Part shown: positions 20,145-61,550 of the stretch, in pieces
Layout: the number at the start of each line of letters is the position of its first letter
How positions within the stretch are numbered: position 1 is the stretch's first letter
Assembly (NCBI GenBank): GCA_028283765.1
Contig: JAPWJY010000008.1
Span: forward strand, 997,001 to 1,061,000
Reading direction: 5' to 3'
Origin: Parvibaculaceae bacterium
GTDB lineage: Bacteria > Pseudomonadota > Alphaproteobacteria > Parvibaculales > Parvibaculaceae
Length of the DNA: 64,000 bases
The notes under the pieces: generated by a model
What the model was told of the DNA's origin: nothing
Seen by the model: only the letters and a program-made list of their open reading frames with translations
The model's database searches: none
Made by a program: the position numbers and the translations under genes

Positions 20145-20180
20145 GCCTACAGCCCCGACCATGGTCAGGTGTCTGTAGGC
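20145..20180 (-). promoter_or_regulatory. Expression-platform hairpin of the fluoride riboswitch
   Basis: GCCTACAG (20180-20173) and CTGTAGGC (20152-20145) can form a perfect 8-bp stem, with an inner palindrome GACCATGGTC. The 5' arm shares its GCC with the aptamer pseudoknot, so the two folds compete. There is only a weak T-rich tail, so whether control is by termination or by translation is not clear. Confidence 0.6.
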
Positions 20181-20230
20181 GTCATCAGCAGCAATGAGTT
20201 CGCTGCGGTTAAAGGAGGAACGCCATCTCC
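20172..20230 (-). ncRNA. Fluoride riboswitch (crcB motif)
   Basis: The minus-strand leader of the CLC gene contains GGAGATGGCGTTCCTCC, then an AAC-containing linker, a GCAGC/GCTGC hairpin, and CTGATGACGCCTACAGA. This follows the layout of the Pseudomonas eriC fluoride riboswitch as I recall it. The P1 stem is GGAG/CTCC, and the loop GGCGT pairs with the 3' ACGCC as a pseudoknot. Position directly upstream of a CLC-F gene fits. Fluoride binding would stabilise the pseudoknot and permit expression. Confidence 0.88.
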
Positions 20231-20281
20231 TGCCGGACGCTTACCGGATACTCGCCAGTTCGTCCAGATTGATTTCGGCAA

Positions 20282-38881: not shown

Positions 38882-38887
38882 GATGAA

Positions 38888-39046
38888 GGGTACTGCCTGG
38901 TTCGTCAGGACAACCATATATCTCGGGGCCTTACGGTCCTTTAGGGAACTGTCACTGGTGGAGATCCTGGTCTCCTGCACACGGTGCCCACCTACATTAG
39001 TAGGTCTCCGAGGATCACCGTTCCAACGGCCAGGTGGGCCCGCTTC
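38888..39046 (+). ncRNA. ssrS: 6S RNA (SsrS) candidate
   Basis: The segment lies between zapA and the 5-formyl-THF cyclo-ligase gene, the standard position of 6S RNA. Its ends can pair: GGTACTGCCTGG (38889-38900) with CCAGGTGGGCCC (39030-39041), ten of twelve positions including wobbles. The length of about 155-160 nt fits. A hairpin CCTAC-ATTA-GTAGG sits inside the 3' half. 6S RNA mimics an open promoter and sequesters sigma-70 RNA polymerase in stationary phase. I have not matched a covariance model. Confidence 0.7.
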
Positions 39047-39060
39047 ATGTATCTTCCGTC

Positions 39061-39660
39061 ATGCCGTCCATAGAGGCCGAAAAGCAGGCGGCACGCGCCA
39101 TTGCAAGGCAGGCCCGGCAGCAGGCCTTCGAGACCATGGCCGCCGGGGCGCCCGGTCTGGTTGCACGGCATTTTCTCGATCATTTCCGCCTTGAGCAGGG
39201 GGCGGTTGTCGCCGCCTATCTGCCCATCGGCACCGAAGTCAGCCCTTTGCCCCTGATCGAGCGGCTGGGCCTGTCGGGCGTGGTGACGGCGCTTCCGGTC
39301 ATCATCGAGCCCGCTGCACCGCTCGTCTTTGCCCGCTGGCGCCTTGGCGATGGTCTGAAGCCCGCATCCCACGGCACGCAGCAACCGCTCCATGACAAGG
39401 ATCGGGTGGAAGCGAATATCCTGCTGGTGCCGCTTCTGGCCTTCGATGGGCAGGGGCGAAGGCTCGGCTATGGCGGGGGCTTTTATGATCGCACGATCGC
39501 CGGTCTGCGCGAGGCGGGACGCCCGGTCCTGGCCATAGGCCTCGCTTTTTCCGCCCAGGAGGTGGAAGAACTGCCGCAGGATCCCTACGATCAGAAGCTT
39601 GATGGCGTGGTCACCGAACTCGGTGTCCGCCATTTCGACAGGACCGGTCTGAATATATGA
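39061..39660 (+). CDS. 5-formyltetrahydrofolate cyclo-ligase
   Basis: A 199-residue enzyme starting MPSIEAEKQAARAIARQARQ, which returns 5-formyl-THF to the folate pool as 5,10-methenyl-THF using ATP. The family signature LLVPLLAFDGQGRRLGYGGGFYDRTI (in two parts, about 121-146) carries the catalytic and ATP-binding residues. It is co-located with 6S RNA in the ssrS-ygfA arrangement. Its stop overlaps the next gene by four bases. Confidence 0.93.
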   Translation: MPSIEAEKQAARAIARQARQQAFETMAAGAPGLVARHFLDHFRLEQGAVVAAYLPIGTEVSPLPLIERLGLSGVVTALPVIIEPAAPLVFARWRLGDGLKPASHGTQQPLHDKDRVEANILLVPLLAFDGQGRRLGYGGGFYDRTIAGLREAGRPVLAIGLAFSAQEVEELPQDPYDQKLDGVVTELGVRHFDRTGLNI

Positions 39661-40469
39661 GAATTCTGTTTTTTGGCGATGTGGTCGGACGTTCGGCCCG
39701 CGACGCCCTTGTCGATGAAGTGCCCGGACTGCGCCGCAAGCTCGGCATCGACGTCGTCGTGGTCAATGGCGAGAACGCCGCCGCCGGTTTCGGCATCACC
39801 CAGACCATCTGCGATGAGATGTTCGGCGCGGGCGTCGATGCCATCACGCTTGGCAATCATGCCTGGGACCAGCGCGAGGCGCTGGTTCATATCGAGCGCG
39901 AGCCGCGCCTGATCCGCCCTGTGAACTTTCCCAAGGGGACACCGGGCCGGGGCGCGAGCCTGCTCGAAATCGCCAGCGGCGAGCGCATTCTGGTCATCAA
40001 CGCCATGGGCCGCGTCTTCATGGATGCGCTGGATGACCCGTTCCATGCGGTCGAGCGCGAGATCGAGGCCTGCCCGCTTGGCGTGGCCGCTGACGCCATT
40101 CTGGTGGATTTCCACGGCGAGGCGACCTCGGAAAAGATGGCGATGGGCCATTTCTGCGACGGGCGGGCGAGCTTTGTAGTGGGCACCCACAGCCATGTGC
40201 CAACCGCCGACGCCCAGATCCTGCCCGGCGGCACCGCTTACCAGACGGACGCGGGGATGTGCGGCGACTATGATTCCGTGATCGGTATGCAGAAGGAGGA
40301 GCCGGTCAACCGGTTCCTGACCAAGATCGCGTCCGGGCGCTTCCAGCCCGCGCTTGGGCCCGCGACGCTCTGCGGCGTTTTTGTGGAAACGGACCGCAAG
40401 ACGGGCCTTGCCACCCGGATCGAGCCCCTGCGGCTCGGCGGCCGGCTGAAGTCCGCCATGCCGGAATAG
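39657..40469 (+). CDS. YmdB-type metallophosphoesterase (TIGR00282)
   Basis: A 270-residue calcineurin-like phosphoesterase. Metal-binding residues are visible in LFFGDVVGRSARDAL (near 4-18), NGENAAAGFG (near 39-48), TLGNHAWDQ (near 64-72), VDFHGEATSEK (near 148-158) and GTHSHVPTADAQ (near 174-185). In Bacillus and Mycoplasma this family hydrolyses cyclic nucleotides. It overlaps the preceding folate gene by four bases. Confidence 0.9.
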   Translation: MRILFFGDVVGRSARDALVDEVPGLRRKLGIDVVVVNGENAAAGFGITQTICDEMFGAGVDAITLGNHAWDQREALVHIEREPRLIRPVNFPKGTPGRGASLLEIASGERILVINAMGRVFMDALDDPFHAVEREIEACPLGVAADAILVDFHGEATSEKMAMGHFCDGRASFVVGTHSHVPTADAQILPGGTAYQTDAGMCGDYDSVIGMQKEEPVNRFLTKIASGRFQPALGPATLCGVFVETDRKTGLATRIEPLRLGGRLKSAMPE

Positions 40470-41065
40470 CGGATATCGTTCCTTCCATCCAAAACATAGA
40501 CGAAAGTTTTATATGTCTGGCCTCATTGTATTCGAGGAAGGGTTACGCCCCGTCTCCGGCAACCGAGGTGGGGTAGCCACCGGAGACGAGGCGTAGCTGC
40601 CACCGCGATGAAGCGGCGCACAAGGTCTGGGGACGCGAGAGTTTGGCGGGACCGCGGGCCAGACCTTTCATGGCCGTCCCTGAGAGGGGTAAACCCAGGA
40701 GCGGCATACGCTGGTAGTATATTTGATCTATCATTTGGGGTAAGGCGTTAATAGGACTAAAGGATTATAAATGAGAGCGATTGGCCGGATTGTCCCAATA
40801 CGGTGCTTTTCCTGCCCCGGACTGGGTGGGCGGTCCGTTCAGGCAGGGTGGGTGCGGCAATAGCCGGGTTGAAGGCCTGAATGCCCGGGCTCTGGATTTC
40901 ACCGGCCCGGCCACTTATAACTGCGCGAGAAATCAGACAGGCGTGGCGTCCCGGGGTGACGGGCATGCCTGTGCGCGGTTTACGCTCGCCTGTTGCGGGC
41001 CGTTCAACCCAGTCATCCGCATTCGAACCCCGATATTCGACCTGAAGCATCCGACCGGAGTCCCT
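40470..41065. other. 596-bp intergenic region with strong secondary structure
   Basis: No convincing gene lies here. The 5' half has a long GC-rich stem-loop run (separate entry). The 40700-40790 part is AT-richer (AGTATATTTGATCTATCATTT, then ATTATAAATGAGAG), and from 40800 to 41060 the sequence is ordinary GC-rich upstream DNA of yebC. A minus-strand frame across the stems (40543-40734) encodes 63 residues with no recognisable family. Confidence 0.6.
40544..40667. ncRNA. Unassigned structured RNA or repeat element
   Basis: Three stems are readable. Stem 1: TACGCC plus CGTCTCCGG (40544-40559) pairs with CCGGAGACG plus GGCGTA (40580-40595), interrupted by one mismatch. Stem 2: CCGC-GATGAA-GCGG (about 40603-40616). 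Stem 3: AAGGTCTGG (40622-40630) with CCAGACCTT (40659-40667), perfect 9 bp. The strand is not settled; a minus-strand TATACT box lies just upstream on that strand at about 40716-40721. I could not match it to tmRNA, RNase P, SRP RNA or a riboswitch class I know. Confidence 0.5.
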
Positions 41066-41812
41066 ATGGCAGGCCATTCACAATTCAAGAACATCATGTA
41101 CCGCAAGGGTGCGCAGGATAAGAAGCGCTCCAAGATGTTCTCAAAGCTCGGCAAGGAAATCACTGTCGCGGCGAAAATGGGCATGGCCGACCCGGAATAT
41201 AATCCCCGCCTGCGTGCCGCCATCATCGCGGCCCGCGCCCAGAACATGCCGAAAGACAATATCGAGCGGGCGATCAAGAAGAGTCTGGAAGCTGGCGGCG
41301 ACAATTATGACGAGGTGCGCTACGAGGGCTTCGGTCCCGGCGGCGTCGGCGTCATCATCGAGGCGCTGACCGACAACCGCAACCGCACCGCGAGCGACGT
41401 GCGCGCCATCTTCACCAAGAATGGCGGCAATCTGGGTGAGACGGGCTCGGTTTCGTTCGGCTTCGACCATGTCGGCTCCATCGAGTTCGCCCCTGAGGTC
41501 GCCGATGCCGACGCCATGCTGGAAGCCGCCATCGACGCAGGCGCCGAGGATTGCCAGTCCGACGAGAACGGCCACACGCTGACCACCAGCATGGAAGACG
41601 TTCACGGCATCGCCCGGGCGCTTGAGGCGAAGTTCGGCGAGCCGCGCTCGGTCACCATCATCTGGAAGCCGCAGGTCAGCATTGCGCTCGATGACGAGAA
41701 GGCGCAGACCATGCTCAAGATGCTCGACGCGCTGGACGACAACGACGACGTGCAGCAAGTTTATGCGAACTTCGAGATGTCTGATTCGTTCATGGAGAAG
41801 ATGTCGGCCTGA
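41066..41812 (+). CDS. yebC: YebC/PmpR-family protein (TACO1 type)
   Basis: A 248-residue protein starting [37 protein letters not shown] (in parts), the conserved YebC N-terminus. The middle has [40 protein letters not shown] (in parts). YebC relatives were long annotated as transcriptional regulators; recent work on the family connects them to translation of proline-rich stretches. ATG 41066 is chosen; the frame remains open upstream to 40781 without homology. It precedes ruvC by 24 bp, a conserved arrangement. Confidence 0.95.
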
Positions 41813-61492: not shown

Positions 61493-61496
61493 GGTC

Positions 61497-61550
61497 GGCG
61501 GGCTACCCCTCCCCACCGAGGGGCATCTATCTGGAAGGGATAGTTGCAAC
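61497..61550 (+). promoter_or_regulatory. serC-type leader RNA with RBS-sequestering hairpin
   Basis: The short leader has two hairpins: CCCCTC/GAGGGG (61506-61511 with 61518-61523) and CTATC/GATAG (61527-61531 with 61539-61543), the second enclosing the GGAAGGG ribosome-binding site. This matches my recollection of the serC motif, a candidate regulatory RNA upstream of serC in alphaproteobacteria. The ligand, if any, is unknown. Confidence 0.65.

Follow-up and report, generated by a model that had tools for sequence, protein, structure and literature searches.

The question raised by this locus is what is encoded in the gap between a ymdB-type metallophosphoesterase gene and yebC in the window, the whole 64,000-nt stretch of Parvibaculaceae DNA that was analysed. 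A preliminary description of the window had reported a highly structured intergenic element there, offering a novel RNA, a yebC leader and a palindromic repeat family as possible readings, and had proposed that copies be counted in the host genome and covarying stems be sought in related ones. As judged from sequence comparison, the gap beside yebC holds a putative gene for a small RNA (sRNA) of ~175 bases with four hairpins, encoded on the minus strand and kept in the Parvibaculaceae. Among the readings offered, it is the novel RNA that gains support, the element being conserved, covarying and without an Rfam match. The sRNA gene is oriented divergently from yebC and convergently with the ymdB-type gene, and the locus comprises the following features:

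39657..40469, plus strand: ymdB-type metallophosphoesterase gene, convergent with the sRNA gene
40536..40709, minus strand: sRNA gene, ~175 nt, supported by fold z-score and covariance-model match, with both ends predicted
40544..40595, minus strand: hairpin IV, terminator-like, with loop UACCCCACCU inside the conserved CCCACCUCGG
40598..40620, minus strand: hairpin III, small
40622..40667, minus strand: hairpin II, with loop UCCCGCCAAACUC
40673..40707, minus strand: hairpin I, the 5' hairpin, with C-rich loop UUUACCCCU
40716..40721, minus strand: TATACT, candidate -10 box of the sRNA in the window's genus (GATAGATCAAATATACT, identical in the sister species G001)
41066..41812, plus strand: yebC, the divergent neighbour to which the sRNA gene stays linked

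The three stems described earlier, along with the minus-strand TATACT (40721-40716), were confirmed in position. This inventory was sound as far as it went, but it gave no strand and missed the fourth, 5'-proximal hairpin (40673-40707). In hairpin IV, TACGCC-C-CGTCTCCGG at 40544-40559 pairs with CCGGAGACG-A-GGCGTA at 40580-40595, giving 15 pairs over 16 positions, and the sole mismatch, C/A on the plus strand, reads as G-U on the minus strand. Hairpin III is formed by CCGC (40603-40606) with GCGG (40613-40616), and hairpin II by a 9-bp stem of AAGGTCTGG (40622-40630) with CCAGACCTT (40659-40667), closing 28 nt. The element is indeed highly structured: the minus strand of 40536-40700 folds with a z-score of -3.8, and the predicted full minus transcript, 40709-40536, with one of -4.7, in both cases with 0 of 200 shuffles as good. 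The 5' end of this transcript was placed ~7 nt past TATACT, and its 3' end past hairpin IV.

The proposed copy count yielded a single copy. In the host genome (3.24 Mb in 9 contigs), one copy was found by blastn and one, on the minus strand, by the covariance model (E 9e-17, with the next best match at E 1.9), and each relative likewise carries one strong copy, so that a palindromic repeat family is rejected. A separate pattern scan of genome contigs gave mostly chance matches among the matches listed. Rfam 15, which includes the alphaproteobacterial sRNA families, returned nothing above any family's gathering cut-off for the window element or for six homologue loci, and at gathering and permissive thresholds the matches were chance ones to eukaryotic families only. 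A literature search for a yebC-linked or Parvibaculum sRNA found nothing relevant. Elsewhere in the window lie a fluoride riboswitch (RF01734, 55.7 bits; 20169-20239, minus strand), a serC leader (RF00517, 57.6 bits; 61496-61548, plus strand) and, 1.5 kb from the sRNA, a 6S RNA (RF00013, 58.8 bits; 38887-39044, plus strand) between zapA and a 5-formyltetrahydrofolate cyclo-ligase-type gene.

Among 60 genomes, the only close DNA relative of the locus is found in G001, another species of the window's genus, where 577 nt of the gap are 84% identical; the element itself is nearly identical, and the flanking stretches diverge more than it does. Covariance model R1 extends this range considerably, with one strong match each in at least 21 of 40 Parvibaculaceae genomes, plus one genus identified by position. 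These matches are single-copy, lie upstream of yebC and are encoded on the other strand, a place occupied by homologues in three genera, of which the other two are Parvibaculum (L013 and others) and genus g3 (L032, L033). The model scores 119.5 bits in both L111 (Parvibaculum sp.) and G025. Because ymdB adjoins the sRNA in some genera only, the linkage of the sRNA is to yebC and not to ymdB. No convincing match to model R1 was obtained in genera g2 and g4 or in several Parvibaculum genomes; the sRNA locus looks degraded in L028 and empty in L024. Beyond the family, the covariance model with strict filters gave no further match in 289 sampled genomes of the class, and the yebC upstream regions of 28 other alphaproteobacteria held nothing convincing (best E 0.16); homologues of low similarity may exist more widely.

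When 20 homologues were folded singly, most gave a common minus-strand plan of hairpins I and II, a small hairpin III and a terminator-like hairpin IV. The stems of this plan covary, as the proposed search of related genomes revealed. In A3, an alignment built on sequence only, two-sided changes occur in 14 of 26 pairs versus 7.9 in shuffles, and the covariation score is 0.266 versus 0.155, a value reached by 0 of 500 shuffles, all of these being shuffles that ignore kinship. Sliding the pairing partners on A3 lowers the paired fraction from 92% to 35-49%. Two-sided changes affect four of five pairs in the inner stem of hairpin II and seven of twelve outer pairs in hairpin IV. Hairpin I aligns poorly by sequence, and its arms were therefore written out by hand; its outer stem alters in relatives with pairing kept (GUCGCCGG/CCGGCGAC, GUUCCCGC/GCGGGAAC). 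With arms anchored by hand, a somewhat lenient choice, cognate arms were also better paired than arms swapped between species in helix I (0.89 versus 0.72), the inner helix II (0.91 versus 0.77) and helix IV (0.94 versus 0.88), and 0 of 2000 swaps were as good for each. The unpaired parts rank among the most conserved letters of the sRNA. Conserved loops comprise GCCCA in hairpin I (Parvibaculum), a CCCGCCMAA-like sequence in hairpin II and CCCACCUCGG in hairpin IV; GCCCA recurs in both hairpins I and II of most Parvibaculum members, and the related CCCACC is present in hairpin IV.

It is very improbable that the element is instead a plus-strand 5' leader or attenuator of yebC. The linkage to yebC is constant and the plus strand folds too (z -2.6, 3 of 200 shuffles as good), but in 20 of 20 sequences the minus strand has the lower fold z-score. 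The pairs themselves point the same way, since G-U pairs of the minus strand stand to A-C pairs (G-U on the plus strand) as 13:0 in helix I and 8:1 in helix II, with helix IV neutral at 13:11. Both the fold z-scores and the G-U asymmetry thus point to the minus strand, divergent from yebC, as the putative sRNA strand. Hairpin IV is followed on this strand by U-rich sequence in L032/L033 (GGGGUUUUUCUG), L013/L041 (CAUUAUUUUCAG) and several other relatives; the window tail is weak and U-poor (UAACCCUUCC), and that of G001 is poor also. Further evidence against a leader is provided by one relative (L019/L051; G015) in which ~1.2 kb separates the element from yebC, and by a conserved promoter-like block that lies near yebC, between it and the element. 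This block (~40890-40930, plus strand, and the matching position in L013-L040) is strongly conserved throughout the family and consists of TATGGATTTTG, ~12 nt and then TATAAAG. It is probably the yebC promoter, and the conservation of its first half is unusual for a promoter. Less probable again is that the element is a palindromic repeat of the REP kind or acts at the DNA level, for instance as a bidirectional ymdB terminator: GC-rich palindromes do occur in the gap at the ymdB 3' end, but they belong to a single-copy element whose four hairpins come in a set order, covary and have conserved loops, and which is kept where ymdB is no neighbour. The least credible reading is a short minus-strand protein-coding gene. 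A window frame is open for 54 codons, from an ATG near 40707 to a TAA past hairpin IV, yet the same frame in L056, from the same genus, stops after 14 codons, the 20 homologues have no frame or length in common, and the changes among them preserve stems, not codons.

In Parvibaculum, CtrA, a regulator of the cell cycle, appears to activate the sRNA gene. In 17 Parvibaculum-type members, the known CtrA consensus, TTAA-N7-TTAA, lies upstream of hairpin I and starts at a distance of 38-39 nt from it, with an exact sequence in 14 members and one mismatch in three; the family encodes both CtrA and GcrA. CtrA boxes at the promoters of non-coding RNAs have been described (PMC8959179, PMC5988900). A Parvibaculum -10 box at TATACT/TATGCT, directly preceding the CtrA box, was considered; the fixed spacing between box and hairpin better suits a start at hairpin I. 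Many Parvibaculum members (L041-L059) also carry an inverted repeat, ACACG-NNNNN-CGTGT, ~20-30 nt before the CtrA-type box, which may be the site of another regulator.

The window and its sister species have no CtrA-type box before the sRNA, and GATAGATCAAATATACT is conserved there instead. The box would thus have been lost from the sRNA promoter of this genus, and expression there would be driven otherwise. The TATACT of this genus would also put the start at hairpin I; however, a strict sigma-70 scan at the window sRNA promoter found nothing, and TATACT is a weak -10 box because no good -35 accompanies it. In the same genus, the ctrA gene (L278, L279) has a promoter without the tandem TTAACC boxes that the other family members possess, and CtrA itself is more divergent, with 75-77% versus mostly 82-85% identity to the Caulobacter query.

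By analogy with characterized RNAs, the sRNA probably regulates other genes, with its C-rich loops as the pairing sites. The reading we favour, with moderate confidence, is that of a single-copy, trans-acting minus-strand sRNA of ~175 nt whose C-rich loops pair with mRNAs and whose expression follows CtrA in most of the family. The loops would pair in trans with G-rich ribosome-binding regions of mRNAs, this pairing would change the translation or stability of the bound mRNAs, and synthesis would follow CtrA, and hence the cell cycle and motility, in most of the family. As a target, ctrA may be regarded only as a candidate. GGGGG is found near its start codon in many Parvibaculum genomes and also in some genomes with a degraded or undetected sRNA, and the window's genus has no G-rich stretch near the ctrA start codon. 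The AAGGGG of the gcrA leader is also present where the sRNA is missing, and inspection of the ctrA and gcrA leaders by eye gave no consistent co-occurrence with the sRNA. It is a tentative and rather doubtful proposal that the sRNA is a Parvibaculaceae-specific, CtrA-controlled cell-cycle riboregulator of an origin separate from that of Caulobacter CcnA and at a different locus, pairing with ctrA and other G-rich leaders and later freed from CtrA in the window's genus. With low probability, the sRNA could be real but act as a protein-binding sponge with repeated GCCCA-type loops, and not by pairing with mRNA. The recurrent GCCCA of hairpins I and II and the CCCACC of hairpin IV do resemble protein-titrating RNAs, but we know of no protein of the family that binds GCCCA loops, which counts against a sponge. 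The published alphaproteobacterial RNAs with C-rich loops also act on mRNAs (PMC8959179, PMC6234868).

The pairing sRNA is best read as working like CcnA or the Agrobacterium RNA PmaR, a comparison based on their described features. CcnA of Caulobacter crescentus is 182 nt long, has a CtrA box at -23 and is encoded in the replication origin by hemE, and its CCCC loop is reported to pair with GGGG in the leaders of ctrA and gcrA (PMC8959179). The present sRNA resembles it in length (~180 nt), in its C-rich loop and in an alphaproteobacterial host with CtrA and GcrA. A CcnA-like CtrA box next to the predicted start occurs in the 17 Parvibaculum-type members but not in the window's genus. Whereas CcnA adjoins hemE, the yebC-linked sRNA does not: in two Parvibaculum genomes where it shares a contig with hemE, the two are 0.8-0.9 Mb apart (G011, hemE at 1.389 Mb and sRNA at 2.296 Mb; G024, hemE at 2.016 Mb and sRNA at 1.220 Mb), and they are on different contigs in G000. 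PmaR is a lineage-restricted sRNA in which a CCCA stretch in an accessible loop is needed for target regulation (PMC6234868). It is built of one long stem with one loop, in contrast to the four hairpins found here, although both RNAs possess a C-rich loop and are lineage-restricted. The 6S RNA (RF00013) is of similar size and consists of one long bulged duplex, whereas the yebC-linked sRNA has separate hairpins and no Rfam match. The sRNA adds to a little-studied alphaproteobacterial order an RNA family with a structure, a strand, a promoter logic and a taxonomic range. The differing promoters of two genera would make a clean case of rewiring, and the CtrA-type box, which ties the sRNA to the cell-cycle regulon, renders the question of whether CtrA commonly drives RNAs with C-rich loops, as it does CcnA, testable in a second lineage.
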